NCBI GenBank assembly: GCA_947469885.1
Contig: CANIQT010000001.1
Coordinates: forward strand, 310,001-374,000
Direction: 5' to 3'
Length of the DNA: 64,000 nt
Origin: Bacteroidota bacterium
GTDB lineage: Bacteria > Bacteroidota > Bacteroidia > 2-12-FULL-35-15
The notes beneath the pieces were generated by a model. The model made no database searches and was not told the origin of the DNA. It saw only the letters and a list, made by a program, of their open reading frames with translations. Positions 2,323-28,526 of this stretch are shown here, piece after piece. The stretch's first letter is position 1. Every line of letters starts with the position of its first letter. The position numbers were made by a program, and so were the translations under genes.

Positions 2323-2392
2323 TTATATTTGCAAAAAAATGTTTTTAAAAAAATAATTTTAATAAATCAAAAAACAAAACAATTAAAATAAA

Positions 2393-5544: not shown

Positions 5545-5651
5545 TTTATTGCTAGAGTAAGTACCAAAACATTTGATAATATAGTCTTTATTTATACCAT
5601 TAGAATTTATATCTTTACCACCTGATATGAATTAATAAAAATCTTTTGCCA

Positions 5652-10664: not shown

Positions 10665-10708
10665 TATTAAGTTTTTGTTGCTAGATATTAAACAACAATA
10701 ATTACTCT

Positions 10709-11950
10709 TTAAAACTCCTTCAGCACTTTTCTTATAATGGAAACACATTCCCGTAATTGTTCTTCCGTAATTATTAAGGGAGGAGCAAAACGTATTATAT
10801 CACCATGAGTAGGTTTTGCAAGCAAACCGTTTTTCATTAATTCGATACAAACTTCCCACGCTGATTTTCCGTTGCGCTCAGTAACAACCATTGCACAGAA
10901 CAATCCTTTACCTCTTACAAGCTTTACTAATTCAGGGTTTTCAGCTTGAATGAATTTTAATTCCCTTAATAATAGTTTTCCTAGTCGTTCTGAATTTTCG
11001 GAAAGTTGTTCATCTCTTAATACGGTGAGGGCTGCTATTCCTACTTTGCATGCAATGGGGTTGCCACCATAAGTAGAACCATGTTGTCCAGGTTTGATAC
11101 ATAGCATAATTTCATCGCTTGCCAATACTGCAGAAACAGGATAGGTTCCACCTGAAAGTGCTTTTCCTAAAATTAAAATATCAGGGTGAACATTTTCATG
11201 GTCGCAAGCTAAAAGCTTACCAGTTCTTCCTAACCCGGATTGTATCTCATCAGCAATAAACAAAACATTATTTTGTTTACACAAATCAAAACATTTCCTA
11301 AGATACCCATCGTCAGGCACTACAACTCCTGCTTCGCCCTGCACAGGTTCAATTAAAAAACCTGCAACTGTTTTATCTTTTAATACTTCGGCTAATGCAT
11401 TTATATTATTGTATTCAACAGAAATAATTCCGGGAGTAAATGGTCCGAAATTATTTTTTGCATCAGGGTCGCTACTTGCAGAGACAATGGTAATAGTACG
11501 ACCGTGAAAATTATTTTTACAAACTATAATTTTTGCTTCATTTTCTGAAACACCTTTTACTTCATAAGCCCATTTACGCGCAAGTTTCAAAGCAGTTTCA
11601 ACACCTTCCGCACCGGTGTTCATCGGCAATACTTTATCATAACCAAAATAAGAAGTAATAAATTGTTCGTATTCGCCAAGGCAATCATTATAAAAAGCAC
11701 GGGATGTAAGTGTTAGTTTTTGTGCTTGTTCAATTAAAGCAGAAACAATTTTAGGATGACAATGTCCTTGGTTAACGGCACTGTAAGCAGCTAAAAAATC
11801 AAAATATTGTTTGCCATTTACATCCCATACAAACACACCCTCGCCACGTTCCAGCACCACAGGCAAAGGATGATAATTGTGTGCACCATATTTATCTTCC
11901 AGTTCAATTGCTTGTTGTGTATCCGTTTTAATACTCATAAGAGTTCTCAT
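10709..11950 (-). CDS. rocD: Ornithine--oxo-acid transaminase (class III aminotransferase)
   Basis: [72 protein letters not shown]. Confidence 0.93.
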
Positions 11951-12027
11951 ATTTATTTTATTTAATATACAAATTTAAGAATTTTATTTGAACCGCATTG
12001 CTTCACAAACTTTGTTACTTTTGCGCC

Positions 12028-13467
12028 ATGATGAGAAATAATAAAAAAGTATTACCAATTTTAGAAAACGTTAATGTTATTGATGCCAGTTCTGATGGGC
12101 AATCTGTTGGTCGGGTAGATGATTTTGTGGTCTTTATAAAAGATGCAATTCCGGGTGATGTGGTGGATGTTCAAGTAACACGTAAAAAAAATAAATTTAG
12201 AGAAGGTAAGGCAATTAAAATACATACCTTTTCAGATAAACGAACAGAACCTATTTGCAGTCATTTTGGAGTATGTGGTGGCTGCAAATGGCAAAATATG
12301 AATTACGAATGGCAATTGTTTTATAAACAAAAACAGGTTGTTGATGCGCTTACTCGTATTGCAAAGATTGAGCTTCCTGAAATTCAAAAAATTATCCCTT
12401 CAGATAAAATATATCAATACAGAAACAAATTAGAGTTTACTTTCTCCAATAAAAAGTGGTTAACCATCGAACAGGTAAATGATAAAACAATTTCGTTTGG
12501 AGAAGGAAAAGACGAAGTAACCCGCAATGCACTTGGTTTTCACATTCCCGGTATGTTTGATAAAATACTGGATATTGATACTTGTTATTTGCAGGAAGAG
12601 CCAATGAATGCAATTCGAAATGAAATTAAAAAATACGCATTGGAAAACAACTTGCCTTTCTTCGATTTACGCGAACAAGTTGGTTTACTTCGGAACATTA
12701 TTATTCGCAGCACTTCCACTGGTGAATGGATGTTGATTGTTGCTTTTTATTATGAGGATAAATCGGCAATCGAAAATATTCTGAATCACCTTTCGGATAA
12801 ATTTCCAGAGATAACTTCTTTACAATATGTAATCAATCCAAAAAGAAATGATACCATCAGCGATTTGGAAATAAAGGTGTTTAAAGGGAATGACAGTATT
12901 TATGAAAACATGGAAGGGTTGAAATTTAAAATTGGTCCTAAGAGTTTTTATCAAACCAATTCCGATCAAGCTTATGAGTTATATAAAGTAGCGCGTGATT
13001 TTGCTGACATTCAAAAAACAGACATTGTGTATGATTTATATACAGGCACGGGTACCATTGCCAACTTTGTAGCCCATCAAGCAAAAAAAGTAGTAGGTGT
13101 GGAATATATTCCTGCTGCAATTGAAGATGCAAAAATAAATTCTCAATTAAATAATATTACCAACACTTCTTTTTATGCTGGTGATTTAAAGGATGTATTG
13201 AATAATGATTTTATAAATGAAAACGGAACACCTGATGTTATCATCACCGACCCACCAAGAGCAGGAATGCACGATGATGTGACTAAAAAGATTTTAGAAA
13301 TTGCACCTCGAAAAATTGTTTATGTAAGTTGTAATCCTGCCACACAAACGAGAGATTTACAATTACTGGATGTTAAATATAAAGTAACGAAAGTGCAACC
13401 CGTGGATATGTTCCCTCAAACGCATCATGTGGAGAATGTTGTATTATTAGAAAGAAGAGAGTTATAG
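12028..13467 (+). CDS. rlmD: 23S rRNA (uracil-C5)-methyltransferase RlmD/RumA-like
   Basis: TRAM-like N-terminus, CSHFGVCGGCKWQ Fe-S cysteines, VYDLYTGTGTIANF, ITDPPRAGMH, IVYVSCNPATQTRDL. Confidence 0.9.
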   Translation: MMRNNKKVLPILENVNVIDASSDGQSVGRVDDFVVFIKDAIPGDVVDVQVTRKKNKFREGKAIKIHTFSDKRTEPICSHFGVCGGCKWQNMNYEWQLFYKQKQVVDALTRIAKIELPEIQKIIPSDKIYQYRNKLEFTFSNKKWLTIEQVNDKTISFGEGKDEVTRNALGFHIPGMFDKILDIDTCYLQEEPMNAIRNEIKKYALENNLPFFDLREQVGLLRNIIIRSTSTGEWMLIVAFYYEDKSAIENILNHLSDKFPEITSLQYVINPKRNDTISDLEIKVFKGNDSIYENMEGLKFKIGPKSFYQTNSDQAYELYKVARDFADIQKTDIVYDLYTGTGTIANFVAHQAKKVVGVEYIPAAIEDAKINSQLNNITNTSFYAGDLKDVLNNDFINENGTPDVIITDPPRAGMHDDVTKKILEIAPRKIVYVSCNPATQTRDLQLLDVKYKVTKVQPVDMFPQTHHVENVVLLERREL

Positions 13468-13476
13468 GTAGTGAGT

Positions 13477-13533
13477 CTAAAGTAAAAAGTCCAAAGTAAG
13501 TTATTGAAACCTTCTTTGGACTTTTTACTTTAG
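13477..13533. terminator. Bidirectional terminator-like inverted repeat between converging genes
   Basis: Perfect 20-bp arms CTAAAGTAAAAAGTCCAAAG / CTTTGGACTTTTTACTTTAG (13477-13496 and 13514-13533). Confidence 0.75.
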
Positions 13534-13546
13534 CTTTTATACAATC

Positions 13547-14617
13547 TTATATTTTATACATCCAATTATGAATATCTTCTACCTTACCTTTACGAATATT
13601 ATCTAATTCTTTGGAAACCCGGTGAGAAAAAATTCTGCCTTCAACAGGAGGTAACTCATAATCTTTTCCTTCAAATCCAATTAATGAAATGTGTGCAATG
13701 GTAGCTGCAGTGCCCGTACCAAAAGCCTCTTCTAGAGTTCCTCTTTTATGAGCATCAATTACTTCATCAATGCTTATTTTTCTTTCTTGCACTTTCATTT
13801 TCCAGTCGCGGGCAAGTGTTAAAACGCTATCACGTGTAATACCCGCTAATATAGTATCGCCAAGGGGAGCAGTAATTAATACATCGTCAATCACAAACAT
13901 TAAATTCATTGTTCCTGATTCTTCTAGATAACGATGATTACGAGCATCGGTCCAAATGATTTGATGATAGCCTCTCTGTTGTGCCAATTTAGTAGGGAAT
14001 AGCGATCGCCCATAATTACCCGAAGCTTTTACATATCCCACTCCACCTTCTACAGCGCGAATAAAATTAGTTTCCACAAGCACCTTCACAGGCTCATTAT
14101 AATAGGCTCCACCAGGAGAAGTAATAATATAAAAGCGATAATCATCCGATGGTTTAACGCCAATATACTCATCAGTACCAATTAAAAAAGGTCGAATATA
14201 AAGCGATGCACCTTCTGTAGTAGGTACCCATTCATTATCCAAACTAATCAATTGTTGCAAGCCTTCCATAAATAATTCCTGGGGAATGCTTGGCATAGCC
14301 ATACGTTCAGCAGAAAGATTTATTCTTTTGTGATTATCTAACGGACGAAATAAAAGCACTTCTCCTTTATCATTTTTGTAGGCTTTCATTCCTTCAAAAA
14401 TTGCTTGCCCGTAATGCAAAGCAGAAGTAGCCGGACTCATTGGAACCTGCCCATAAGGCACTATCCGTGCATCATTCCATTGACCATCACTATAGTCAGA
14501 AATAAACATGTGGTCTGCAAAAACTTTTCCGAAATGAAGATTATTAAAATCAATTTCGCTTAATCTTGAGTGTGGAGTTTTTTGAACTTTCACCTCTGGT
14601 GGCTGTGTTGTAAGCAT
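13547..14617 (-). CDS. ilvE: Branched-chain amino acid aminotransferase
   Basis: ALHYGQAIFEGMKAYKNDKGEVLLFRPLDNHKRINLSAERMAMP; GNYGRSLFPTKLAQQRGYHQIIWTDA; EAFGTGTAA. Confidence 0.93.
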   Translation of the reverse strand: MLTTQPPEVKVQKTPHSRLSEIDFNNLHFGKVFADHMFISDYSDGQWNDARIVPYGQVPMSPATSALHYGQAIFEGMKAYKNDKGEVLLFRPLDNHKRINLSAERMAMPSIPQELFMEGLQQLISLDNEWVPTTEGASLYIRPFLIGTDEYIGVKPSDDYRFYIITSPGGAYYNEPVKVLVETNFIRAVEGGVGYVKASGNYGRSLFPTKLAQQRGYHQIIWTDARNHRYLEESGTMNLMFVIDDVLITAPLGDTILAGITRDSVLTLARDWKMKVQERKISIDEVIDAHKRGTLEEAFGTGTAATIAHISLIGFEGKDYELPPVEGRIFSHRVSKELDNIRKGKVEDIHNWMYKI

Positions 14618-14683
14618 GTTGTCAGGTATTACAATGCGATAAAATTAGTGAATTAATTTGTTTTGGCAACTATTACATAAATA

Positions 14684-16759
14684 TTAATTTGAACCGTTGC
14701 GCTTGCGCATAAACCATTCAATACTCAATAATGTAAGAAGAAGGAAGAAAATCCATTTTAGGTTAATTAAATCGGTTAGCTTTTTTTCTGTGTAAGAAAC
14801 AGATTTAATATCATCTCTTTTGTTTAAATCAGCCACTAACTTTTCAAGTTGATTTGGATAAACCATTTCTCCATTATGCTTTTTGGCAAGACTAAACAAC
14901 ATCTGATGGTCCGCAACTGTATTGATCAATTCCACCTGCAATGCACTCACGCTAAAACTTCCTTTTTGAGTGTACATTTTATCACCAACTTTAACTTTAG
15001 CCTCATATTTATATTCACCCACAGGCATCATCCCTGCATTTAAGCGGTATGCATTGGCTGTTTTGCTGAATGTAAAAGGAAAGTTTTTGTTTTCGGAATT
15101 AGTAATTGTAATGTTTACTTCGGGTTCGTTAATCAATTCATAACTTTCATTATACACTTCCGCTTCCATTTCTATTGCTTCGTTTTCGAGGAAATTATTT
15201 TTAGCAATTACTTTAAAAAAACTCTTATCCACTTTCACAGAAAGATATTGAACTGTTTTGGAAACCAATTCATCAAACACATTGTGATTGCCATGTGTTG
15301 CGAAATCCTGTAAACGCCAACGCCAGATACCTTCTCCTTCTACAATTGCCATTTTATTATCACCAACAGAATTAAAAAACATAAATGGTGTTTTAGTATC
15401 CACTATCCCGATTCGCTGATATATCAATACATTGCTGCCGGTTTCTGATCCATAGGTTCCAAAGGGACAAGTTACAGCAGGAAAGGTTTTAACAGCTTTT
15501 CGTAATTCATCACTTAGAGTAAACAAAGGAAAGTTCTGGTCTAGAACCGATTCACATTCGTTGGATTTTTGATTTGAATTTGTTGCTGTCAGATTACTTT
15601 TTAAAATTGAACCTGCACCTGAAAATGCCCATACAGGAATAGTTCCAGCAGTTATCTCATTCATTATTCTTGTTGAAGGATTTCGAACATTCGGAATTTG
15701 ATAAAGAATAACAAGGTTATATTTCTTTAATGGTTTATCAAAATTATCTATAGTATAACTTTCCACTTCGTAATTCTGGTTGGCTTCAATAGATTCTTTT
15801 AATGCAGCAATATCAGGGTGAGGAGCATCAGCAAGGATAAGAATTTTTTGTCGAGCATCCAATACATCAATAAATACATCTCGTTCATTGTTTGATAAAC
15901 TCATCTCTTCAGTTAGAAATGAAAGCTTAATTCGGTAATGTTGTAAACCAACTTCTTTTGCATCTAATAAAACAGGAACAGTAGTAGTAAAAGCATCGGA
16001 ACTAAAATTAATTGTTTGGGTAAATAATATTGCACTGCCTTTGTTTACAGTAAGTGTAGTGGTTTTACCTTTTAATTGTTTTGCATTAACTACTATCTCC
16101 ATCGGAAACTGATTGCCAAGATATGCCAAGCGGTTTGCATTTACTTTTGCAAGAATAATATCTTTCTTTACAGTTGTATCTCCAAGTGCAACCGTATAAA
16201 CAGGAATTTTTATCTTGTCGGACGAATAAACAGGATTAGACCCTTTGTTATATAGTCCATCAGTGGCAAGAATAACAGCACCAACATTTCTGTTGCTGTA
16301 TCGTGTTTCAATTTCATCAAACAAAGAAGAAATATCTGTTTGTTTTTCGTTAAATTTTAAAGAGTCGGTTGACTTTACTTCCTTTATTTTATCTGCAAAA
16401 GAATAAGAGCGTACTTCATATTTATCCCCAAGCTCGTCTATCATTTTCTGCAGATTTTGCTTGTATTCATTTTTGTAAAAAGCAGCATCTTTACCAACAA
16501 TAATTGATTCGGAATTGTCCTGAGCAACAATAATTACAGGCTTTTCAACGGTTCTATTAATTGTTTTTAATAAAGGAGAAAGTAAAAAGAAAGCAAGAAG
16601 AGAGATAACAACAAATCTAAATGTTGCCATTAATCGAATCACCCAAACGGATAATTCACTTAATGATTTATCTTTCCTATAAAGAATAAATGAATAGGAA
16701 AATGCTACAACGATGCAGAACAAACCAAACCATAAAGGATATTCAGTAATTAAATTCAT
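14684..16759 (-). CDS. Membrane protein with VWA-like domain
   Basis: N-terminal TMs (YPLWFGLFCIVVAFSYSFILYRKDK), DNSESI MIDAS-like motif, VILATDGLYNKGSNP, C-terminal TM. Confidence 0.6.
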   Translation of the reverse strand: MNLITEYPLWFGLFCIVVAFSYSFILYRKDKSLSELSVWVIRLMATFRFVVISLLAFFLLSPLLKTINRTVEKPVIIVAQDNSESIIVGKDAAFYKNEYKQNLQKMIDELGDKYEVRSYSFADKIKEVKSTDSLKFNEKQTDISSLFDEIETRYSNRNVGAVILATDGLYNKGSNPVYSSDKIKIPVYTVALGDTTVKKDIILAKVNANRLAYLGNQFPMEIVVNAKQLKGKTTTLTVNKGSAILFTQTINFSSDAFTTTVPVLLDAKEVGLQHYRIKLSFLTEEMSLSNNERDVFIDVLDARQKILILADAPHPDIAALKESIEANQNYEVESYTIDNFDKPLKKYNLVILYQIPNVRNPSTRIMNEITAGTIPVWAFSGAGSILKSNLTATNSNQKSNECESVLDQNFPLFTLSDELRKAVKTFPAVTCPFGTYGSETGSNVLIYQRIGIVDTKTPFMFFNSVGDNKMAIVEGEGIWRWRLQDFATHGNHNVFDELVSKTVQYLSVKVDKSFFKVIAKNNFLENEAIEMEAEVYNESYELINEPEVNITITNSENKNFPFTFSKTANAYRLNAGMMPVGEYKYEAKVKVGDKMYTQKGSFSVSALQVELINTVADHQMLFSLAKKHNGEMVYPNQLEKLVADLNKRDDIKSVSYTEKKLTDLINLKWIFFLLLTLLSIEWFMRKRNGSN

Positions 16760-16822
16760 ATCAACGAATTACGAATTTTCATATTATACAAGGAAATTTT
16801 AATGAATTATGTCAGGTAACAC

Positions 16823-16843
16823 CTCCTCTCCTTTGGAGAGGAG
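16823..16843. repeat. Palindromic intergenic element CTCCTCTCCTTTGGAGAGGAG
   Basis: 9-bp arms around TTT, followed by ATTAAGGGGTGAG. Confidence 0.7.
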
Positions 16844-16863
16844 ATTAAGGGGTGAGTTAATTA

Positions 16864-17610
16864 TTAGGTTAGCATTCCTCCGCAAACATTTATTACTTGT
16901 CCGGTTATGTACGCACTCATGTCAGAAGCAAGAAAAATAGTAGCATTGGCAACATCATCCACAGTACCTCCTCGTTTGAGAGGCACATTATCTCTCCACC
17001 CTTCTACCACCTTTGCATCAAGAGCGGCAGTCATTTCTGTTTCAATAAAACCTGGAGCAATAGCATTGCAACGGATGTTTCTTGAACCCAATTCTAATGC
17101 AACAGATTTTGTAAAACCAATTATCCCTGCTTTAGAAGCTGCATAATTAGATTGCCCAGCATTGCCTTGAATTCCTACAACAGAACTCATATTGATAATA
17201 GAACCTTTTCGTTGTTTCAACATGGGTTTCTGCACTGCTTTTGTAACATTAAACACTGATTTCAAATTTGCATTCATTACTTCATCCCACTGCTGCTCGC
17301 TCATCCGCATTAATAATGTATCACGAGTGATGCCTGCATTGTTTACTAGAATATCTATCGTTCCGAAATCGGCAACAACAGTATTCACAAGTTCTTCAGC
17401 TGCTTTGTAATCTGCAGCATCTGAGCGGTAACCTTTTGCTTTTATTCCAAATGCCTGTAATTCTTTTTCCAACTCCTGTCCTTTTTCTACAGAAGATAAA
17501 TATGTGAAAGCAATACTAGCCCCCTGTTCTGCAAACTTTAAGGCAATACCACGACCTATACCTCTTGAAGCACCAGTGATTAAAGCAATTTTTCCTTCGA
17601 GCAATTTCAT
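16864..17610 (-). CDS. fabG: 3-oxoacyl-[ACP] reductase
   Basis: SDR Rossmann motif TGASRGIGRGIA, NNAGITRD, YAASKAGIIGFTKSVALELGSRNIRCNAIAPGFIETEMT. Confidence 0.93.
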   Translation of the reverse strand: MKLLEGKIALITGASRGIGRGIALKFAEQGASIAFTYLSSVEKGQELEKELQAFGIKAKGYRSDAADYKAAEELVNTVVADFGTIDILVNNAGITRDTLLMRMSEQQWDEVMNANLKSVFNVTKAVQKPMLKQRKGSIINMSSVVGIQGNAGQSNYAASKAGIIGFTKSVALELGSRNIRCNAIAPGFIETEMTAALDAKVVEGWRDNVPLKRGGTVDDVANATIFLASDMSAYITGQVINVCGGMLT

Positions 17611-17681
17611 AATTTATTTAGTTAATGATTGATAGAAACTGATTTTTACGAGTTTAAAGATAAAAGAAAATAATGAGGTAA

Positions 17682-18521
17682 TTAAAAACAATATGCTAAA
17701 TTAAAATCAAATTGTGCAGTGGGAAGTGTATAATTATTTACTTCTATCGTTTCTTCCCGTTTAAAACCAACTCCCAATTTACTTCCTATTAAAAAATTAT
17801 CACCTAAACGCAAGTATCCTCCCAAATGAATCATGCCCGAATAATGAACTCCCTCGTACTCTATTGGTTGCCCTGAGGTAGTAAATGGGTAATAAGGATA
17901 AGGTACAGTAGTTGATTTATAATAATTGAAAGTGCCAGCAAAAGTTGATAATCCCACATAAAAAGTATTTCTTGTTTGCCCTAAGGGATAGATATTAAAT
18001 TCCAGACCGGCAGCATAATTTCTATTTTGCAAAAACTGCGTTTGCCAAAAATCAGACGTATAATTGGTAGTATTTGGTTTTCCTTTTAAACCAATAGAGA
18101 GAGGTATTTTAAAAGAAAATTTTCCTGAATTTAAAATGCGTTCGTAAGAAGCCGAAAAATTTGTAAAAAACATATCAAAACAATTTAATGCAATTATATT
18201 TTTAAAAAAAACTTTGTTATCCGTTTTTTCAACGGGTTTTACCTCCTCCCGCTCGCGCTCCACATAAGCAGGTTTTGGGCTGGTATTATAAAATTCTTTC
18301 ACTCCGTTTTGATATACTATATAATGAATATCGTTTTTAGATAATTCAAAAACTTTATCGGTAGTACTGCTGTATAATTTATATTTAACAGTACCAGTAT
18401 TTATTTCCAACACCTTTGCCGAAATAACCGTTTCGTCCGTTTTATGAATCATATCCTGTGCATTCAATGTAAACGCAACTAGCACCATTACTATTGCCAA
18501 ACATCTATTTTTTGTCTTCAT
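17682..18521 (-). CDS. Secreted/outer-membrane beta-barrel-like hypothetical protein
   Basis: Signal peptide MKTKNRCLAIVMVLVAFTLNAQ and beta-rich C-terminus ending in F. Confidence 0.4.
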   Translation of the reverse strand: MKTKNRCLAIVMVLVAFTLNAQDMIHKTDETVISAKVLEINTGTVKYKLYSSTTDKVFELSKNDIHYIVYQNGVKEFYNTSPKPAYVEREREEVKPVEKTDNKVFFKNIIALNCFDMFFTNFSASYERILNSGKFSFKIPLSIGLKGKPNTTNYTSDFWQTQFLQNRNYAAGLEFNIYPLGQTRNTFYVGLSTFAGTFNYYKSTTVPYPYYPFTTSGQPIEYEGVHYSGMIHLGGYLRLGDNFLIGSKLGVGFKREETIEVNNYTLPTAQFDFNLAYCF

Positions 18522-18596
18522 TTGATTAAAATTAAAATGGCTATGCAAAATTGCATAGCCGAAATTACTCTTATTATTCAATATTCAGAAATGATA

Positions 18597-19517
18597 TTAA
18601 TCAACCCTGTTGGTATGATGATGAGGGCTGCCTCTTCTCACTTCCTCTGCTAAGGCTTTCGCCATTGCTATTCCGATGTCGGCTGGAGAATCAACCACAA
18701 TGATTCCACATTCTCTCATAATTTTCTTTTTTGCTTCTGCAGTATCATCAGCTCCTCCAACAATTGCACCTGCATGACCCATCGTTCGTCCTTTCGGAGC
18801 AGTTTCTCCGGCAATAAAACCAACCACAGGTTTACGGTTTCCGTCAGCCTTTACCCAGCGTGCCGCTTCTGCTTCCAGGTTCCCTCCTATTTCGCCTATT
18901 ATAATAATAGCATGTGTTTCTTCATCATTCATCAATAGTTCCACCGCTTCTTTTGTGGTAGTGCCAATAATTGGGTCGCCACCAATGCCAATGGCAGTAG
19001 ATACTCCAAGCCCTGCTTTCACTGTTTGGTCTGATGCTTCGTAAGTTAATGTTCCCGATTTAGAAACAATTCCTACATTTCCTTTTTTAAATACAAACCC
19101 CGGCATAATGCCTACTTTGGCTTCTTCGGCAGATATTACTCCCGGACAATTGGGTCCGATTAATCTGCAAGCTTTGCCTTTCAAATATTCTTTTACTTGA
19201 ATCATATCCCTCACCGGAATACCTTCGGTAATACAAACGATTACTTTTATTCCCGCTTCAGCAGCTTCCATAATGGCATCGGCAGCAAAGGCAGGTGGTA
19301 CAAAAATAATGGAAGTATCAGCATCTGCTTTTTGCACTGCTTCCTGAACGGTATTAAACACGGGGCGTTCCAAATGAGTGCTACCTCCTTTGCCCGGAGT
19401 AACTCCTCCCACCACATTGGTTCCATACTCTATCATTTGCGAAGCATGAAAAGTTCCTTCGGTGCCTGTGAATCCTTGTACTATTATTCTTGAATTTTTA
19501 TTTACTAATACACTCAT
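18597..19517 (-). CDS. sucD: Succinate--CoA ligase subunit alpha
   Basis: RIIVQGFTGTEGTFHASQMIEYGTNVVGGVTPGKGG; LIGPNCPGVI; GRTMGHAGAIVGG. Confidence 0.95.
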   Translation of the reverse strand: MSVLVNKNSRIIVQGFTGTEGTFHASQMIEYGTNVVGGVTPGKGGSTHLERPVFNTVQEAVQKADADTSIIFVPPAFAADAIMEAAEAGIKVIVCITEGIPVRDMIQVKEYLKGKACRLIGPNCPGVISAEEAKVGIMPGFVFKKGNVGIVSKSGTLTYEASDQTVKAGLGVSTAIGIGGDPIIGTTTKEAVELLMNDEETHAIIIIGEIGGNLEAEAARWVKADGNRKPVVGFIAGETAPKGRTMGHAGAIVGGADDTAEAKKKIMRECGIIVVDSPADIGIAMAKALAEEVRRGSPHHHTNRVD

Positions 19518-19671
19518 ATTATTAATTGTTGATTTTTAGAATTGTTATATTGATTTATTGTCAAATTGTCAAATTGATTCATTGCCAAATTGATTTCAGT
19601 CGGCTAAATTATAGTTTTACAACGTTATTGCAAAGCAAATAATTACTTTTGTCGAAAATCATGCTATTTTA

Positions 19672-21075
19672 TTGGTGAAAACTTCGTTTATAAATAAAGA
19701 TACTATTGTTGCTTTGGCTACTCCTCAGGGAGTGGGAGCTATTGGAGTGGTGAGAGTGACAGGACCGGATACCATTGCTATCTGTAACAAATTATTTGCC
19801 ACCAAAAGTTTAAAGAAAATTGATTTGACCCAAAAAGCCTCTCATACGGTTCATTTTGGGGTTATTCGTAATGGAGATATTATTATTGATGAAGTGTTGG
19901 TTACACTTTTTAAAGCTCCTACCTCCTACACTGCCGAAGACACCATCGAAATATCCTGTCATGGTTCCGGTTTTATTCAGCAACAAATTATTCAGTTGAT
20001 TGTTAAGCAGGGTGCTCGAATGGCTCAGCCCGGAGAATTTACCATGCGTGCTTTTTTGAATGGCAAACTGGATTTATCGCAAGCCGAAGCAGTGGCTGAT
20101 TTAATTTCTGCCGGCTCTTCGTCTGCTCATCAAATAGCTATACAGCAGATGCGGGGCGGATTTTCGAGCAAAATAAAATTGCTTCGTCAAAACTTAATTG
20201 ATTTTGCTTCGCTGATAGAATTGGAATTGGACTTTAGTGAAGAGGATGTAGAATTTGCCGACAGAACGGATTTAAAAAATCTGGTGAACACTATTCAGCG
20301 CATTGTGCAACGGCTCATTGATTCGTTTGAAGTTGGCAATGTTATTAAAACTGGCATTCCGGTGGCAATTGTGGGCAAACCCAATGCCGGAAAATCAACT
20401 TTATTAAATGTTTTGCTGGAAGAAGACAGAGCCATAGTATCAGAAATACCGGGCACTACACGCGATGTGATAGAAGATGAAATTACTATCGATGGTGTTT
20501 TGTTTCGTTTTATTGATACGGCAGGCATTCGCGAAACCACTGATATCATTGAATCGATGGGGGTGGAAAAAACATTTGAACAAATTAAACTTTCGTCCAT
20601 TGCCATTTATTTATTCGATGCTCACGAAATAACAACCACCGAACTTGGGCAAATAGTGGACGATTTGCTGCCTCATATTCATAACTCTCATTTAGTACTT
20701 GTTGCCAATAAAATTGATAAAGAAGATATTAATTACATTAAAAAAGAATTTAGTGAATTCCCGGAAATGCTTTTTATTTCTGCCAAAGAGCGCATCCACA
20801 TTGATGAACTGAAACAACAGCTGGTGGCATTGTTTGATAGTAAAACAGTGAACGTAACTGAAACCATTGTTACCAATGCCCGACATGTAGAAGCGTTGCG
20901 ACACACCAATGTTGCTTTGTTACGAGTGCTGGAAGGATTGAATAATAATGTTACAGGAGATTTTCTGGCAATGGATATACGTCAGGCATTGCATCATTTG
21001 GGTACTATCACTGGTGAAATTTCGAGTGATGATTTGCTGGCTAATATTTTTTCAAGCTTTTGTATTGGAAAGTGA
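19672..21075 (+). CDS. mnmE: tRNA uridine-5-carboxymethylaminomethyl(34) synthesis GTPase MnmE
   Basis: DTIVALATPQGVGAIGVVRVTG; GKPNAGKSTLLN; canonical C-terminus IFSSFCIGK. Listed start is a TTG (GTG follows); exact start uncertain. Confidence 0.95.
   Translation: MVKTSFINKDTIVALATPQGVGAIGVVRVTGPDTIAICNKLFATKSLKKIDLTQKASHTVHFGVIRNGDIIIDEVLVTLFKAPTSYTAEDTIEISCHGSGFIQQQIIQLIVKQGARMAQPGEFTMRAFLNGKLDLSQAEAVADLISAGSSSAHQIAIQQMRGGFSSKIKLLRQNLIDFASLIELELDFSEEDVEFADRTDLKNLVNTIQRIVQRLIDSFEVGNVIKTGIPVAIVGKPNAGKSTLLNVLLEEDRAIVSEIPGTTRDVIEDEITIDGVLFRFIDTAGIRETTDIIESMGVEKTFEQIKLSSIAIYLFDAHEITTTELGQIVDDLLPHIHNSHLVLVANKIDKEDINYIKKEFSEFPEMLFISAKERIHIDELKQQLVALFDSKTVNVTETIVTNARHVEALRHTNVALLRVLEGLNNNVTGDFLAMDIRQALHHLGTITGEISSDDLLANIFSSFCIGK
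21058..21075 (+). repeat. attL: Left attachment site core = mnmE 3' end
   Basis: TTTTGTATTGGAAAGTGA, encodes F-C-I-G-K-stop. Confidence 0.82.
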
Positions 21076-21130
21076 AGTACTTTTCCTTTGTTTTCCTTTT
21101 GCCTACTTTATTGGCATTATAAAGGTATTA

Positions 21131-21224
21131 ATTTGTTGTTAGTTTCTTTTATTTGTTGTTATTATGCTTTTATTTGTTGCTAATTATTATCTTTGCATTC
21201 AATTAACAACAAATAACAACAAAA
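21131..21224. promoter_or_regulatory. Cluster of five ATTTGTTGTTA-like sites (three direct, two inverted); putative integrase arm sites/operator
   Basis: ATTTGTTGTTA at 21131 and 21151; ATTTGTTGCTA at 21172; inverted TAACAACAAAT at 21204 and TAACAACAAAA at 21214. Confidence 0.65.
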
Positions 21225-22351
21225 TGAAAGTACATCTAAGACAAAGGAAGCAATCCAAAAAAGGTAAAGTATCTCTTTACCTTGAAATCTACAAAGGCAC
21301 TACACAAAATGCAAATGGTAAAATTGTAGGCATTAGAGATTATGAATATTTAGAACTCTATTTGATTGACAAGCCAAGAACTCCAATAGATAAAAGGCAC
21401 AATAAAGAAACTTTGGAGGTTGCTAATAATATCAAAACAAAAATAGAACTTGAAATTAAAAATGGTGAATATGGTTTAAAAAGTGGTTTTAATCAATCTG
21501 CAAATTTTGTAGAGTACTTCAAAGCACAAACAGAAAAGCGTTTGTTGAATGATGGAAATTATGGAAATTGGGATAGTTCCTATAAGCACCTCATCAAATT
21601 TGCAGGTACACAGGTAACATTTAGAGAAGTAGATAAAAAATTTTGTGAGGGATTTAAAGACTATTTAACCACAGCAAAAACAAAAAGTGAAAAAACTTTA
21701 TCCTCATCTGCCGTTGCATCATACTTTACAAAATTTAAAGCTTGTTTGAATAAAGCAGTACAGGAGGATATTATTTTAAAAAGCCCTGCATTAGCAATAA
21801 GTACACCTAATACAGTTGAAAACATAAGAGAGTATTTAACTTTAGATGAGTTGAAAGCCATTACAAAAAAAGAGTGCAGGTATGAAGTATTAAAAAATGC
21901 TTTTATTTTTTCTTGCTTAACTGGTTTGAGGTGGTCAGATATTCAAAAATTACAATGGTCAGAGGTGCAAAAAAATGATACAGGATACAAAATAGTATTT
22001 CACCAACAAAAAACAAAGGGACTGCAATACCTTGATATTTCAGAACAAGCAAGGGGATATTTAGGGGAGCAAGGCAACCCAAGTGAGAGAGTTTTTATAG
22101 GATTAAAATATAGTGCTTATCATAATGTAGCATTGGAAAGATGGATGATGAAAGCAGGTATTACAAAAAAAATAACATTCCATTGTGCAAGGCATACATT
22201 TGCAGTACTGCAATTGACTTTAGGAACTGAAATATTTACACTTTCAAAACTATTGGGACACTCTGAATTAAAGACTACACAGATTTATGCAAAAATAATT
22301 GATGAGAAAAAAAGAGAAGCAGTAAATAAAATACCTGATTTAACTATATAA
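21224..22351 (+). CDS. Tyrosine-type site-specific recombinase/integrase
   Basis: C-terminal catalytic motifs TGLRWSDIQKLQW, HCARHTFAVLQL, LGHSELKTTQIYAK. ATG at 21224; the upstream part of the listed ORF overlaps the repeat region. Confidence 0.93.
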   Translation: MKVHLRQRKQSKKGKVSLYLEIYKGTTQNANGKIVGIRDYEYLELYLIDKPRTPIDKRHNKETLEVANNIKTKIELEIKNGEYGLKSGFNQSANFVEYFKAQTEKRLLNDGNYGNWDSSYKHLIKFAGTQVTFREVDKKFCEGFKDYLTTAKTKSEKTLSSSAVASYFTKFKACLNKAVQEDIILKSPALAISTPNTVENIREYLTLDELKAITKKECRYEVLKNAFIFSCLTGLRWSDIQKLQWSEVQKNDTGYKIVFHQQKTKGLQYLDISEQARGYLGEQGNPSERVFIGLKYSAYHNVALERWMMKAGITKKITFHCARHTFAVLQLTLGTEIFTLSKLLGHSELKTTQIYAKIIDEKKREAVNKIPDLTI

Positions 22352-22474
22352 ATGGAGCAAAGAAAAAAGAAAGGTAATATAATTTGGAGATTGATTAAGC
22401 ACTATTGGAAGTGCTTTTGGTATTTAATTTTCATTCCTGATTATAGCAACCAAAAGGAGAAAAAAGATTTATAA
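22352..22474 (+). CDS. Possible 40-aa cationic small membrane protein
   Basis: MEQRKKKGNIIWRLIKHYWKCFWYLIFIPDYSNQKEKKDL*, starting at the integrase stop; not in the supplied ORF list. Confidence 0.35.
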   Translation: MEQRKKKGNIIWRLIKHYWKCFWYLIFIPDYSNQKEKKDL

Positions 22475-22497
22475 TACCAAATTTAATTTCATTAATT

Positions 22498-23979
22498 ATG
22501 GCAATACCATTCATTCTAACAGATATTGAAAACCACCTAAATACTTTGAAATCAAAGGATGAAAAGATAAATCATTTGGTAGAGTTATTATTTGGTAGGC
22601 AAAAGAGAAGAGCAGAAATGGAAAGTGATAAAAGCAAATTGTCATTTTTAAAAAAGCAAACAAAGAATGATTATGAAATTTATCAAAATGAATTTTTAAA
22701 TGGAAGATTGGTATATTTTACCAAAGCAGATAAATGGAATAAAATGACTGCAAAAAGATTAGGATTTACAAATATTGATTTATTGAAAGAAAGGCTTTCC
22801 CTTGAAAATAAATTCAACTTACTTGATGGTGAAATTTTAATGCTTAAAGGATTAATAACTAAAACAAAAAACACAAAAGATAACACACCTGTATTAAAAG
22901 AAACAGAATCAACAAAAAGCCATCAAATGCACTTTGAAACTGAAAATACCGATGCACTTGTATATGAGATAAATAATTTTCATTTGAAATGGGAAAAAGA
23001 TATAAAAGAAGACATTGCAAAAAAATATAATAAAAGTGAATTTGCCTTGTACTATAATGGTTTCAATATGTGGGAGGTTTATGATGCTGGAAGTATTGGA
23101 GTGAACTATGAAAACAAAATGCTTTCATTGTATAAAGAATGTATAAATGAAATTGATAAAAATTCTTTGAATTTAAAAAGGGAAGATAGGATTCCTTATT
23201 TAAAAAAGATACTCCCTAAATTTTATACTAATGAACCCAATAAAGAACAAGTAACATTTTTAAGTATTCAGGAACAGGAAATTCAGGAAACAATTTATTC
23301 TTACCATACAGGGCACGATTTTATGGCAGAGGGAGGAACTCATATTTCAGATTTTATTACTATTTGTGTTTCAGGGTTTGATAGTAAAGAATTTGAATTT
23401 TATTCTTACCATTGTTTAAATCAAAAAGAGGAAACATATTTAGAAGACTTATCTGATGAAGATAATGAATACTGGAACATTAGACATTCTTTTGTAAAAA
23501 CAATTCTTTCCATAAAAAGAAATACACTTGAAAAATTAGAACAACAAATTAATAAATGGATTGAATTAGAGGGAAACAATGATAAAGGTATTGCAACTCC
23601 ACCAACAAAGGAAAAAGAAGAAAAAGCAATGGAAGTATTAAATACATTTGACTATTCTAACCTTACTGAAATATTTTTCCCTGATAAGATTGAAGATTTT
23701 AAAAGGATTGAAAATGAAATGTTGAATAGTGATTTTTTTAAAAATAATAAATGGAGTGATAAACACCCCAAATATGAATTGGCAGGACTTATACATATAT
23801 TAAACAGTAAAAAATATTTTAAACCATTGAAAGGCAAAAACACTTCTACATCATTGCTTTCATACAGATATTTTTTTGAGAAAAGATATGGCATTATTAT
23901 TGAAAAAGAATTTCAATCCAATAGAATAAATAAAAAATTACATTTTGCTAAAGTTGCTTTTACTTCTATCAATATTTAA
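22498..23979 (+). CDS. Hypothetical protein of the mobile element
   Basis: 493-aa ORF; lysine-rich, no motif I can name with confidence. Confidence 0.6.
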   Translation: MAIPFILTDIENHLNTLKSKDEKINHLVELLFGRQKRRAEMESDKSKLSFLKKQTKNDYEIYQNEFLNGRLVYFTKADKWNKMTAKRLGFTNIDLLKERLSLENKFNLLDGEILMLKGLITKTKNTKDNTPVLKETESTKSHQMHFETENTDALVYEINNFHLKWEKDIKEDIAKKYNKSEFALYYNGFNMWEVYDAGSIGVNYENKMLSLYKECINEIDKNSLNLKREDRIPYLKKILPKFYTNEPNKEQVTFLSIQEQEIQETIYSYHTGHDFMAEGGTHISDFITICVSGFDSKEFEFYSYHCLNQKEETYLEDLSDEDNEYWNIRHSFVKTILSIKRNTLEKLEQQINKWIELEGNNDKGIATPPTKEKEEKAMEVLNTFDYSNLTEIFFPDKIEDFKRIENEMLNSDFFKNNKWSDKHPKYELAGLIHILNSKKYFKPLKGKNTSTSLLSYRYFFEKRYGIIIEKEFQSNRINKKLHFAKVAFTSINI

Positions 23980-23991
23980 TTACCCTAAAAT

Positions 23992-24165
23992 ACAATACCA
24001 CATTTAGCGGTATTGATACCACATAACAATACCACTTTATTTTTAAAGCACCTCTAAAGTTCTTATTTTAAAGGCATTTTACCTCCATTGGTACTAATAC
24101 CATTTTTTCCCTTGTTATGCTAATGATATACTTTTGTTTTTGATTAATCATCAAAGGTATTGCAA
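23992..24165. promoter_or_regulatory. Repeat-rich intergenic region with iterated AATACCA/GGTATTG motifs (candidate origin or operator)
   Basis: ACAATACCAC at 23992 and 24026; CAATACC-9nt-GGTATTG inverted repeat 23993-24015; further GATACCAC, TAATACCA, GGTATTG copies. Confidence 0.45.
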
Positions 24166-24198
24166 TATCATTTTTCTAACTTTTTATAAATTATTAAA

Positions 24199-24441
24199 AT
24201 GGAACAAAAAACAATTTTCACAATTCAGGATTTAGCAGACTACACACAATGGAGTAAAAGCTATATCTACAAGAAGACCAGCGATGGCACGTTAAAGTTT
24301 AGTAAGCCATTGGGAAAAACCATCTTTTTTAGTAAAGAATGGATTGACAATTTTTTAATGTCAAATACCAATAGTACTACAAAGGAACTTGAGGCAAAAG
24401 CATCTACTATTGTTACACTTAACAAAGGAGGTGCAAAATGA
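24199..24441 (+). CDS. MerR-like/excisionase-type HTH protein
   Basis: TIQDLADYTQWSKSYIYKKTSDGTLKFSKPLGKTIFFSKEWIDNFL, matching the HTH_17 pattern. Confidence 0.75.
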   Translation: MEQKTIFTIQDLADYTQWSKSYIYKKTSDGTLKFSKPLGKTIFFSKEWIDNFLMSNTNSTTKELEAKASTIVTLNKGGAK

Positions 24442-24908
24442 TAGGAAACATTTTTTCAGATTATTACAAAGGGCAGTTACTAACCGATGCAAAAAGCAGG
24501 TATGATGTAACTCACAGTACCGGAGGTTATCCATTCTTTGAAAGTTTGTTAATCAACAAACAGAAATCTAATGTGGGAGGTTTATCATTCAATTATGCAC
24601 CAAGACCGATGCAATTCAAAGGCAATGAAAAAAGACTTGCTGAAATGATTATAAGCAAAGGTAGTAGTAGTATTAGCAGTGTGTATGTACCTAACATTCA
24701 AAAAAATTATTTTGCATTTGGTGATGTAAAAACCACCAATGATGCAATGATTATAATTTTTGATGAGGACAAAAAAACTATTGAAATATTCATTGCAAGA
24801 GGTTTAAAGAATGATAAGAAACAATTGTATTCAGATGTTTGTGATGGTTATTATGACAATGAACTGGAGGCAATAAGACAAAGTGCAAAAAATGTTTTCA
24901 AAGGATAG
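24438..24908 (+). CDS. Hypothetical mobile-element protein
   Basis: 156-aa ORF overlapping the HTH gene by 4 bp (ATGA). Confidence 0.6.
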   Translation: MIGNIFSDYYKGQLLTDAKSRYDVTHSTGGYPFFESLLINKQKSNVGGLSFNYAPRPMQFKGNEKRLAEMIISKGSSSISSVYVPNIQKNYFAFGDVKTTNDAMIIIFDEDKKTIEIFIARGLKNDKKQLYSDVCDGYYDNELEAIRQSAKNVFKG

Positions 24909-25025
24909 TAACCAATTCAGTAACCAATTGAGAGAGGGTAAAGGAGTGCTTTTTATCCTCTCCAGTTTGTTTCTGTATATCAATACATATTTAGTTACTG
25001 ATTTAGTAACCCTTGTTTATTCAGG

Positions 25026-25958
25026 ATGGATAGAATAAGTTTAACATTAAGAAAAGAACAAGTGCCAAATATTGATTTATTAGCTGAAATACCTCTTTAC
25101 CTTACAAGTATATCAACTGAAGGTTTTAGTTATGGCAAATCAACTGTAAATGGCAAATTAGGTAGTTTTGATGTAACCATTAATGAGGATAGAATTAAAA
25201 TAAGAAACGCAAGTTTAACAAAGTTTCATTTAGGTAATAGTTTATCAATGATTAGCAGGGATGGGATAAAACAGGCATTTGAAAAAATGAGTGATACATT
25301 ACATTTGCCAATTAAAAAAGCAGAGGTGCAAAAATTTCACTATCCTAAAAACATAATGCTGAATTATGATGTTTGTTTGTATTTAAAGCATTTAGGCAAT
25401 TACAGCCATTATAACAGATTAGAACAACCTTATGGTATAAACTATAAGCAAGTAAATAAAGAGTTTGCCATATATGATAAAATAAGGGAAACAAAGCATC
25501 ACAGAGAGCCATTGCCACCAATGTATAAAGATAGATTTATGATGAGGTTGGAAAGCAGGTATGGAAATAATTTGTGTAAACAATTTAATTTACCTGAAAT
25601 CACAGCAAGTTTATTATATGATGAGAGTTTTTATATGTTGGTGAATGATAACTGGTATAATGATTATAAGAACATTGATAAAATAAAAAATTACAAAATA
25701 GATATGGAACAAGTAACCACAAAGGAACAATTAAAACTTTTAGGAGTACTTTCATTAGTACAAATGGAGGGAGGCAAAAACCAGGCACTCCAAAATTTAA
25801 AAGAAAGGTATTTGCAAGGTAAACTAACCAAAAAACAGCACTATGATTTAAAAGCATTGATTGAGCAAAGCAGTACAATGAAATTGCAAACAGTTGAAAG
25901 TGATTTAATACTGGAGCTTAATCAAAAAGTAAAAGAAGCAGTGAAATACTATGTTTAA
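25026..25958 (+). CDS. Putative replication initiator resembling filamentous phage gpII/X (Phage_CRI-like)
   Basis: Pattern LTKFHLGNSLSMISRDGIKQAFEKMSDTLHLPIKKAEVQKFHYPKNIML...YLKHLGNYSHYNR...FAIYDKIRE...RFMMRLESRYGNNLCKQFN...LYDESFYM resembles the gpII/X replication protein family as I recall it. Confidence 0.6.
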   Translation: MDRISLTLRKEQVPNIDLLAEIPLYLTSISTEGFSYGKSTVNGKLGSFDVTINEDRIKIRNASLTKFHLGNSLSMISRDGIKQAFEKMSDTLHLPIKKAEVQKFHYPKNIMLNYDVCLYLKHLGNYSHYNRLEQPYGINYKQVNKEFAIYDKIRETKHHREPLPPMYKDRFMMRLESRYGNNLCKQFNLPEITASLLYDESFYMLVNDNWYNDYKNIDKIKNYKIDMEQVTTKEQLKLLGVLSLVQMEGGKNQALQNLKERYLQGKLTKKQHYDLKALIEQSSTMKLQTVESDLILELNQKVKEAVKYYV

Positions 25959-25984
25959 ACATTGATTAATCAAATTTTATCAAT

Positions 25985-26227
25985 ATGAAAAAAGGAGGAT
26001 TGAGAGCCGGTGCAGGTAGAAAACCAAAAGCAACAGAATTGGAGTTAATAGAATTACTTACTCCATTAGATGCAATTGCTTTTAAAGCATTGGAAAAAGG
26101 AGTAAAAGCAGGAGAGTACCAATACATCAAATTATTTTTTGAATATCGCTATGGCAAACCAAAACAGCAAATAGATATTGAACAAGCTGAATTACCTTGT
26201 CCTGTAATTGTAATAAAAAGGGAGTAA
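25985..26227 (+). CDS. Small RAGAGRK-motif protein (phage packaging/terminase-small-like N-terminus)
   Basis: MKKGGLRAGAGRKPKATELE...YGKPKQQ, a motif common in phage small terminase-like ORFs. Confidence 0.4.
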   Translation: MKKGGLRAGAGRKPKATELELIELLTPLDAIAFKALEKGVKAGEYQYIKLFFEYRYGKPKQQIDIEQAELPCPVIVIKRE

Positions 26228-26242
26228 TTTGAAACCAAACAA

Positions 26243-26779
26243 TTATTTTTTCCTTTTGAGTAAATGATGGTAGGTGTTTAGATTTCTATCGTTTACTATA
26301 TATGATTGAACTACCTCCCACCCCTGATTTCCCATATAATTAAGTGCATCTATCATTGAATTAAAGGTTTGCATTTTCCCGCTTTCATCTCTTATCATAT
26401 TATCTTGAAAAAAATTTCTTTTTTGTCCATAGTCAATAGAAATCTCTACTTGTACTCTAAATGGAAAAGTAGTACCAATAATTTCACAATAAATATATTT
26501 CTCTCCCAAGTATTCCTTTTGTGCAGTAGTATCATTTAGTGTTTGTAAGGATTTATTTGAAGCTAAAGAATAATATTTTGTTTTACTAATCTGCATTTTA
26601 TCGTTTACTATCTCCCCATTCCAAATTTTATGGTCATAAAAGAAATAATTATTTTTTAAAAGTGTAATAGTGCAATGAATAGAATCATTTGCATTAGTTA
26701 CTATCAAATCTTTAAACTCTTGTGAATATCCTGATATTATGCAACTCAATGCAGATAGAATAAGAATAATTTTTTTCAT
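26243..26779 (-). CDS. Small secreted hypothetical protein (putative cargo)
   Basis: Signal peptide MKKIILILSALSCIISGYSQ; C-terminal MGNQGWEVVQSYIV resembles DUF4177-type sequences. Confidence 0.55.
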   Translation of the reverse strand: MKKIILILSALSCIISGYSQEFKDLIVTNANDSIHCTITLLKNNYFFYDHKIWNGEIVNDKMQISKTKYYSLASNKSLQTLNDTTAQKEYLGEKYIYCEIIGTTFPFRVQVEISIDYGQKRNFFQDNMIRDESGKMQTFNSMIDALNYMGNQGWEVVQSYIVNDRNLNTYHHLLKRKK

Positions 26780-26890
26780 GTTTTTAATATTAATTGTTTG
26801 TGTATTCAACAAACAAATGTAATATTAATTTAAGAAATTGAATTTTTGATTTCTTTATTTCAATATGGGGGAGGTCAATAATTAACTGTT
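26777..26890 (-). promoter_or_regulatory. Promoter/upstream block homologous to 58438-58550
   Basis: GACCTCCCCCAT.TTGAAATAAAGAAA...ATTTCTTAAATTAAT.TTACATTTGTTTG...CAATTAATATT shared; TTACATTTG fits the Bacteroidota -7 TAnnTTTG element. Confidence 0.75.
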
Positions 26891-27151
26891 TTCCATTCAA
26901 CAAAGCACCCCATCAAATGTGGTCATTGCCACATTTAAAGACCTGTACACAACTTTTTCCCTTTATAGTATTATGTTTTCACTCAAAGTGCTATAAATGG
27001 CTTTGTAACACTTGTAAAATCAAATATTACAAGCTATTTGCTCTTTGTTATACCTGATATAGTATAATTTCCTTAAAAGTGGCAATGTGGTTATCTCTCA
27101 TGCTTTCTTACAAAAGAAAAAAATTGGCTTTTTTCTTTAATCGGTAGTAAA

Positions 27152-27568
27152 CTAAAAACTCCTGTAAATAGCCGTTATGTCAAATACGTTATAGTGAAGG
27201 GCATTAAACACATTCGCCTGTATGAAAATATCTGTTCCGTTCACCCAATTACAGTGAACATTATCATTGCTTTTTATTGAAAATCCTGTTTGAACATTAA
27301 ATTTTAACGGGATATAAATCGTATCTCCTGTCATTGTGTACGGGTAGGTTGCTCCAAAATCTTCAACGGAACTCATTATTAGCTTAGAAACTGTTGTTGA
27401 GGTAAAGTAAATGGTGTCCATAATACCTGCTTGTGGCATTGTATTATAATACCTTGCGTGTGGTCGGTGGCTACCCGTTCCACCACTCCCTCCTGTTGGT
27501 TGTGCATCTTCTTTCTTTTTACAACTAACAATAGTTAGAATTGCTAAAATAAATAGTAGTTTTTTCAT
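27152..27568 (-). CDS. Small lipoprotein (putative cargo)
   Basis: Lipobox-like MKKLLFILAILTIVSCKKKEDAQP. Confidence 0.6.
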   Translation of the reverse strand: MKKLLFILAILTIVSCKKKEDAQPTGGSGGTGSHRPHARYYNTMPQAGIMDTIYFTSTTVSKLIMSSVEDFGATYPYTMTGDTIYIPLKFNVQTGFSIKSNDNVHCNWVNGTDIFIQANVFNALHYNVFDITAIYRSF

Positions 27569-27679
27569 TGTGGGTAAATTTATGTTTGACAAATGTATTA
27601 AATATTAAACAGCAAAACTATTTAATATTTTCTATTTTAGTTATCAAATTTTATCCTGAAAAGTAACCCTTATGTATAA

Positions 27680-27690
27680 ATTTGTTGCTA
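27680..27690. repeat. Distal arm-type-like site ATTTGTTGCTA
   Basis: Identical over 13 nt (ATTTGTTGCTAAT) to the copy at 21172-21184. Confidence 0.55.
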
Positions 27691-27762
27691 ATATTCATTT
27701 TTTGTAATTCTAAAATAGATTACATACCTTTATTAATAGCACTTTCCAAAGGTTGCTACACT

Positions 27763-27780
27763 TTTTGTATTGGTAAGTGA
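27763..27780 (+). repeat. attR: Right attachment site core
   Basis: TTTTGTATTGGTAAGTGA, 17/18 match to attL and also F-C-I-G-K-stop. Confidence 0.82.
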
Positions 27781-27786
27781 TGTATA

Positions 27787-27818
27787 AAAAAAGTCCCGCA
27801 TTGCTGCGAGACTTTTCT
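27787..27818. terminator. Terminator-like hairpin just outside attR
   Basis: AAAAGTCCCGC-ATTGCT-GCGAGACTTTT (one mismatch), between attR and the 3' end of the minus-strand gene at 27855. Confidence 0.7.
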
Positions 27819-27854: not shown

Positions 27855-28526
27855 TTACCCGCAAATGGTTCCCTGCACATTGCTCAACTGACCCACTCCT
27901 GCGGTGTTTCCAGCAAAATAATAAACAAAATATTCGTTGCCTTTAATTAAAGCATTAAACTGTTTTTTGCGTTTTTTATTTACATCAATTCTAATAATAA
28001 ATGCCGCATCTGCCGGGTCAATAACCAACTGACCCTCTCTAATTGCCGTATTAGCAAGTTCTTTTGTGGTGAGCAGGGCACCATAAAATTCGGCTCCCGG
28101 AACAACTTTACACTCTGCCACCACCATGCGCGATGCCTCGCCTCTGCCAACAGTTACTACCGCAACTCCCGGCACTGAGGAAGCCGTGCGAGTTACCTTA
28201 GTGGGTATAAATCCTCCCAAAATAATGATGTCTTCATTACCGTTAGCCCGTGCATCCACAGCTATGCTGAACAAGTCCATATCGCTCAAAACATCTGCCT
28301 TTGCAAGCAAAAAAGGACCTTTTTGGTCTTCGCCTCCCCGCTTATAAGCACTATACTTGAGATTGTAAGTCGCAATATGACCTTCATAAACTGTTTGCGT
28401 CACAGGGGCAGTGGCAGCAAAAGTGCCGGTGTTGCCAAACCATCCTGTTTTTACTCCTGTAGCCGTGTCGGGTAAGGTTTCAAACGACTCGGTGTGATAC
28501 TCTAAACTACATACTGATTTTGCCAT
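27855..28526 (-). CDS. Hypothetical protein with FnIII-like C-terminal motif
   Basis: 223-aa ORF; C-terminal LIKGNEYFVYYFAGNTAGVGQLS resembles an FnIII strand F/G pattern. Confidence 0.5.
   Translation of the reverse strand: MAKSVCSLEYHTESFETLPDTATGVKTGWFGNTGTFAATAPVTQTVYEGHIATYNLKYSAYKRGGEDQKGPFLLAKADVLSDMDLFSIAVDARANGNEDIIILGGFIPTKVTRTASSVPGVAVVTVGRGEASRMVVAECKVVPGAEFYGALLTTKELANTAIREGQLVIDPADAAFIIRIDVNKKRKKQFNALIKGNEYFVYYFAGNTAGVGQLSNVQGTICG

Follow-up and report, generated by a model that had tools for sequence, protein, structure and literature searches.

The 3′ end of mnmE (trmE/thdF), an essential tRNA-modification gene, is best known as the entry point of resistance islands of the Salmonella genomic island 1 (SGI1) type into Gammaproteobacteria. 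Among small mobile elements, RS1 and TLC, satellites of filamentous phages of Vibrio, carry a Phage_CRI-type replication protein (Rep), have no capsid genes and use XerCD at dif. Here we analyze 64,000 nucleotides (hereafter the window) from a Bacteroidota bacterium (assembly GCA_947469885.1, contig CANIQT010000001.1, positions 310,001 to 374,000), in which we conclude with high confidence that positions 21058-27780 represent an integrative element that lies at the 3′ end of mnmE and regenerates the last codons of its target. It is a compact element of predicted rolling-circle type (5-7 kb) from the Bacteroidota at an already known integration site, and no paper on Bacteroidota elements at mnmE was found in the open-access literature. 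The predicted integration logic is well supported by the repeats at its ends and by the filled and empty sites of its relatives.

The mnmE insertion site in the window and in relatives

The mnmE gene of the window is full length, as its TIGR00450 match extends to the last residue and the protein ends in FCIGK and the stop codon. An earlier, sequence-only reading had proposed that the last 18 nt of mnmE recur with a single synonymous change, that an integrase gene starts about 150 bp inside the left copy and that a terminator-like hairpin lies past the right copy, and all three were borne out. The two 18-nt cores, which differ at one synonymous position, are the sole sites in the window with fewer than three mismatches, and when the 15 kb downstream of mnmE were shuffled 200 times with dinucleotide composition preserved, no shuffle contained an 18-mer within one mismatch of the mnmE tail. 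The integrase ATG at 21224 is 149 bp inward from the left repeat, and the hairpin starts 8 nt beyond the right one. In relatives the right flank is not syntenic with mnmE, so that the hairpin is a candidate for the native mnmE terminator and might just as well act for the convergent gene at 27855-28526.

The genus set comprised 36 genomes, the window's own and 35 congeners, and Rep is found in only two of them, the window genome and G034. The latter contains the same element at mnmE, with homology blocks that extend from upstream of mnmE into the right repeat, of which the last 4 bases are not covered; the right flanks are unrelated. Different inserts are present at mnmE in other congeners, with gene names read from translations rather than from a family search. 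They include a 2.6 kb insert with a truncated integrase start and a HigBA-like pair (G010), a 12.1 kb insert with perfect repeats, HipBA-like and other genes and no recognised integrase (G001), inserts with one DUF4143-type ATPase gene each (G008 and G027), and one with a HipBA-like pair (G028). The inserts of G008, G027 and G028 end in a second mnmE-tail-like sequence beginning TGCTGTATCGG, and have the appearance of cassettes mobilized in trans. Empty sites were found for all three, with matches that begin 1-16 bases past the core: the DNA past the G008 repeat adjoins mnmE in G018 (87% over 2.4 kb), and the corresponding sites are in G003 and G009 for G027 and in G016, G033 and G035 for G028. 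The G008 and G027 repeats are not significant by sequence alone and rest on this comparison. Just downstream of mnmE in G016, G024 and G033 there are integrases 39-40% identical to that of the window; the repeats proposed for G016, G017 and G033 have at least three mismatches and were not taken as att sites. The mnmE 3′ end is thus an insertion hotspot that is filled in some relatives and empty in others.

Several further observations concern the same site. In G028 the HipBA insert separates mnmE from sequence that in G033 and G016 comes immediately after mnmE, which suggests stacking of elements. The contig that carries mnmE stops inside the core in both G026 and G031; a fork of the assembly at this point would have this effect, and other causes are possible. 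G031 also contains a degenerate second copy of the final 66 codons of mnmE (C9, 121799-121996; about 9800-10000 of L043) in which the 18-nt core is intact; it adjoins a cysteine desulfurase-like gene and helicase-/ATPase-like genes that may form a defence island.

Beyond the genus, 37 loci were recovered when GTDB representatives were scanned with an integrase alignment. Identity is 42-89% at 33 of these, and at 26 of the 33 the integrase gene lies directly downstream of mnmE in the same orientation, at a distance of 150-1091 bp from the mnmE stop codon. These 26 loci, in Bacteroidota, Chlorobiota and Gammaproteobacteria, are not all independent, as some are near-copies and two are genomes already mentioned or described below (L106 is G034, L110 is G412). 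The remaining seven consist of two that begin at a contig edge (L121 and L132), one with the core and no mnmE (L135), and four from Chlorobiaceae with neither. The last four (L114, L115, L116 and L125) form one clade (100/100), an apparent change of target site. The intact core of L135 (9803-9820) lies about 180 bp before the integrase; the locus may be the inner element of a tandem, or a secondary site.

The core also marks the boundary of transfer. Four metagenome-assembled genomes labelled as different families or orders (L120, L122, L123 and L130), and the isolates Parapedobacter soli and Olivibacter sitiensis, contain relatives of the window element with a different type of cargo. Among the four genomes, identity is 62.6-64.3% over the 1.2 kb of mnmE that precedes the core and 94.7-97.3% over the 1.6 kb from the core onward, and the blastn match between L120 and L122 starts at the first base of the core; the isolates are 71% identical on the mnmE side vs. 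91% on the element side. With elements 95-97% identical from the core on and mnmE bodies only 63-64%, these relatives have undergone site-specific horizontal transfer bounded by the core. The proposal that the element regenerates the end of its target gene is therefore upheld by the G034 homology that stops at the repeats, the three contrasts of filled and empty sites, the 26 of 33 loci at mnmE and, in relatives, the transfer boundaries. The interval genes were not found to be core genome and the repeat was not found to be a chance one, the two outcomes that the sequence-only reading had named as contrary to it.

Genes, attachment sequences and related elements

The interval between the repeats (~6.7 kb; Table 1) contains eight open reading frames (ORFs) and has a GC content of 29.0%, with flanks of 35.7% and 33.6%. 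The integrase ortholog in G034 is 89-90% identical. The helix-turn-helix (HTH) protein, probably the excisionase (Xis), scores above the cut-off for TIGR01764 and right at the cut-off for PF12728. PF05144 (Phage_CRI) matches the Rep homolog of L097 at 3.9e-20. The structure model of Rep (pLDDT 88.7) has as its best PDB match the rolling-circle initiator RepDE of S. aureus (E 1e-4, TM 0.41), and an Inoviridae protein ranks second in a comparison with viral models. Relatives of Rep were found neither in IMG/VR nor in phage records, and the only match in the plasmid collection is a Parabacteroides record with identical gene order. A guess that ORF2 is RteC-like received no support from Pfam, the 80-aa protein has no direct support as a small terminase, and the fold model of ORF156 is of low confidence and was left uninterpreted. 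Profile searches assigned no confident family to the 178-aa cargo protein, and PADLOC gave no match to a defence function for the cargo. Family searches of the eight ORFs found no capsid, Zot or confident terminase gene, no coat genes and no relaxase; the Zot/pI ATPase and coat genes of a filamentous prophage are thus lacking, and PF05707 is absent from the genome itself.

Table 1. Features of the window element and of integrase-less inserts at mnmE in congeners (insert positions are those of the loci named).
Feature	Position	Strand	Remarks
mnmE (trmE/thdF), target gene	19714..21075	+	453 aa; TIGR00450, E 1.1e-120
attL core TTTTGTATTGGAAAGTGA	21058..21075	+	last 18 nt of mnmE, codes for FCIGK and stop
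Dyad GGAAAGTGAAGTACTTTTCC	21067..21096		core end and first element bases; similar in most relatives
Four putative arm-type sites WTTTGTTGYTAWT	21151-21163(+), 21172-21184(+), 21202-21214(-), 21212-21224(-)		perfect copies; attL-int interval
Tyrosine integrase, 375 aa	21224..22351	+	Pfam: Arm-DNA-bind_5, Phage_int_SAM_5, Phage_integrase
ORF2, 493 aa	22498..23979	+	no assigned function; same-position counterparts highly diverged
HTH_17 excisionase-like protein (probable Xis), 80 aa	24199..24441	+	TIGR01764, 2.5e-7; PF12728
ORF156, 156 aa	24438..24908	+	no assigned function; most members keep it between xis and rep
Rep, 310 aa, G2P/Phage_CRI-type rolling-circle replication initiator	25026..25958	+	PF05144, 1.2e-5
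Basic GAGRKP protein, 80 aa	25985..26227	+	one related-element counterpart is DUF5681-like
Cargo protein, 178 aa	26243..26779	-	signal-peptide-like start; homologs in G034 and L099
Cargo ORF, 138 aa	27152..27568	-	lipoprotein-like (LTIVSCKKK start); no family
Right putative arm-type site ATTTGTTGCTAAT	27680..27692	+	~70 bp before attR
attR core TTTTGTATTGGTAAGTGA	27763..27780	+	G034 homology ends at 27776
Hairpin past attR	27789..27816	+	-11.9 kcal/mol, z = -4.7
Integrase-less insert, G008 (L054)	875-2657
Integrase-less insert, G027 (L077)	1388-3324		reversed
Integrase-less insert, G028 (L078)	1393-3539		reversed

The motif WTTTGTTGYTAWT is proposed to be the arm-type site for the Arm-DNA-bind domain of the integrase. 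Its five perfect copies in the window (0.21 expected) all lie at the ends of the element and were reached in none of 100 shuffles, a count that alone overstates the case because the motif was taken from the window itself. Independent support comes from relatives, which have similar arm-like motifs at similar offsets; in L111 a change of TTTGTTG to TTTGCTG is present at both ends of the element. As the putative arm sites overlap the region directly upstream of int, autoregulation of int is possible. The dyad GGAAAGTGAAGTACTTTTCC may bind the integrase; a terminator role was set aside because RNA folds are weak across the family.

In a class-wide sample of 395 Bacteroidia genomes a Rep relative is present in nine, four of which (G000, G034, G412 and G232) have the Rep-bearing element at mnmE and five elsewhere. 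In G412 (L097) the cores TTTTGTATCGGAAAGTAA (attL) and TTCTGTATTGGAAAGTAA (attR) are 5.39 kb apart with the same gene order, and the protein encoded after rep has weak similarity to small terminases (E 0.03); in related elements such proteins show weak small-terminase or DUF5681 similarity at most. In G114 an int-xis-ORF156-rep element (L098, about 5500-19800, reversed) lies between a CRISPR-like array and cas1/cas2/Cas9-like genes. Among the loci of the integrase scan, a second core is found downstream in L106, L109, L110, L111, L124 and L134, giving sizes of 4.9-7.1 kb, and a less certain copy at 2.4 kb in L128. The order int-ORF2-xis-ORF156-rep is shared by the window, L106, L107, L109, L110, L111 and L124, the integrase frame of L124 being interrupted. 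L132, from Flavobacteriales UBA4422, combines a related integrase with a Rep_1-like replication protein, a TonB-type receptor and a metal-transport-like gene, and has a core-like sequence at the contig end; from this locus, replication modules seem exchangeable.

Proposed cycle and alternative explanations

We propose that recombination by the integrase takes place between an attP core and the 18 nt of mnmE that code for FCIGK and the stop codon. On integration, the final codons of the host mnmE would be replaced by those that the element brings (attL), which would leave MnmE intact, and the host's own core would shift to the far end as attR. The N-terminal arm domain of the integrase probably binds the putative arm sites at both ends, and Xis would shift recombination toward excision. 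The excised circle may then be copied by the rolling-circle Rep and could insert again at the 3′ end of mnmE in a different genome, with transfer between cells most likely hitch-hiking on the conjugation or phage machinery of another element.

Four points weigh against this interpretation. The only congener copy, that in G034, is 89-90% identical at the protein level, and recent mobility of the window copy is unsupported. The empty sites that the sequence-only reading called for, found for the three inserts described above, were not found among relatives for the window's exact two flanks, and the right-flank gene sought for this purpose is located elsewhere in G034 and G012. The Rep assignment combines a weak direct Pfam match with better-scoring homologs and a modest fold match. 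Finally, the family includes four integrases from Chlorobiaceae that lie at places other than mnmE.

The step between cells could take more than one form. It is possible, if doubtful, that the element is an integrative and mobilizable element (IME) moved by a helper conjugative system, with Rep doubling as relaxase. The fold of Rep is nearest to a rolling-circle initiator, Rep_Trans-type proteins occur in some Firmicutes IMEs, and the trmE-site elements SGI1 and MGIVchHai6 are conjugatively mobilized, SGI1 appearing in a review table without a relaxase (PMC5704250). However, the element has no relaxase family match, no oriT was identified (none was searched for), and the Bacteroidota-type TraG (TIGR03783) was not found in its own genome, which is 91% complete. 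Less likely is a phage satellite whose helper is filamentous, as for RS1/TLC of Vibrio, or tailed. Membership of Rep in the Phage_CRI family, its match to an Inoviridae protein, the virus-like size, the secreted-protein cargo and the weak small-terminase similarity in L097 would all be in keeping with a satellite, but the absence of capsid, Zot and confident terminase genes from the element, and of Zot from its genome, and the lack of Rep relatives in IMG/VR and phage records speak against one.

Two further explanations deny present mobility or the element itself. A decayed, immobile remnant of a larger island is improbable: att-bounded remnants do occur at mnmE, and the G010 integrase is truncated, but int, xis and rep are all open in the window and the same compact set is shared by several lineages of Bacteroidota. 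In L106, L109, L110, L111 and L124 the element has two repeats and is 5.1-7.1 kb long. A chance repeat beside an unrelated island is hardly credible, even though the repeat is just 18 nt long and FCIGK is conserved, as it is contradicted by the shuffles, the G034 boundaries, the empty sites, the frequency of mnmE among the integrase loci, the arm motif and the transfer boundaries.

Relation to SGI1 and other known systems

Two records filed as phages, OR850969 (from S. Kentucky) and OR845421, contain the mnmE tail TTCTGTATTGGGAAGTAA, and the gene after it codes for a 405-aa integrase. Its identity to the integrase of the window is 44% over 99% of the latter. The left direct repeat (DR-L) of SGI1-K in S. 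Kentucky equals the same tail (PMC11237444). From the host serovar, the DR-L sequence and the size of int, the 405-aa protein is probably the SGI1 integrase; an attempt at confirmation in E. coli genomes gave no match. The sequence-only reading, in which the content appeared unrelated to SGI1, stands for the cargo and fails for the integrase. In the tree the 405-aa integrase groups with those of Aeromonas, Marinobacter and Methyloprofundus (100/99), all at mnmE, and this gammaproteobacterial group is nested in a set otherwise from Bacteroidota and Chlorobiota. As the deeper forks are partly unresolved, the tree does not reveal the direction of transfer.

Members of one integrase family enter through the same 18-bp site in Chlorobiota and across the Bacteroidota, and the SGI1 integrase is thereby placed in a larger family. 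This also suggests a reason for the choice of site, as the codons of the near-invariant C-terminal CIGK are a target kept by bacteria with mnmE. Compact elements in which no relaxase or capsid gene was found pose a testable question of how they pass from cell to cell. We tentatively suggest, as a possibility somewhat short of even, an undescribed cross-phylum lineage of mnmE-specific elements with an integrase family to which that of SGI1 belongs, and with a compact Bacteroidota branch that exists as a rolling-circle replicon when excised, spreads without its own relaxase or capsid and supplies att sites for integrase-less cassettes of one or two genes (DUF4143-type ATPase, HipBA).

The window element shares its 18-bp site with SGI1-K (repeats TTCTGTATTGGGAAGTAA and TTCTGTATTGGTAAGTAA; PMC11237444) and with MGIVchHai6 (repeats TTCTGTATTGGGAAGTAA and TTCTGTATTGGCAAGTAA; PMC4958241). 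It differs from SGI1 in its host among the Bacteroidota, in size (~6.7 kb vs. 42-47 kb) and in its Phage_CRI-type Rep, SGI1 being listed with Rep_3 (PMC5704250). The SGI1 transfer genes (traN/traG/traH, mps) have no match among the eight ORFs, and AcaCD sites were not searched for. With NBU1, NBU2 and Tn4555, also Bacteroidota elements, it has in common a tyrosine integrase and, as predicted here, excision as a circle. These elements code for MobP relaxases, and NBU1 and NBU2 target tRNA genes (PMC5704250), whereas the window element targets mnmE and has no relaxase family match. Unlike RS1 and TLC, it has its own integrase and enters at mnmE, and no helper phage is known for it. The term cis-mobilizable element (CIME; PMC5704250) fits the integrase-less, att-bounded inserts of G001, G008, G027 and G028, from which the window element differs in that it retains int, xis and rep.

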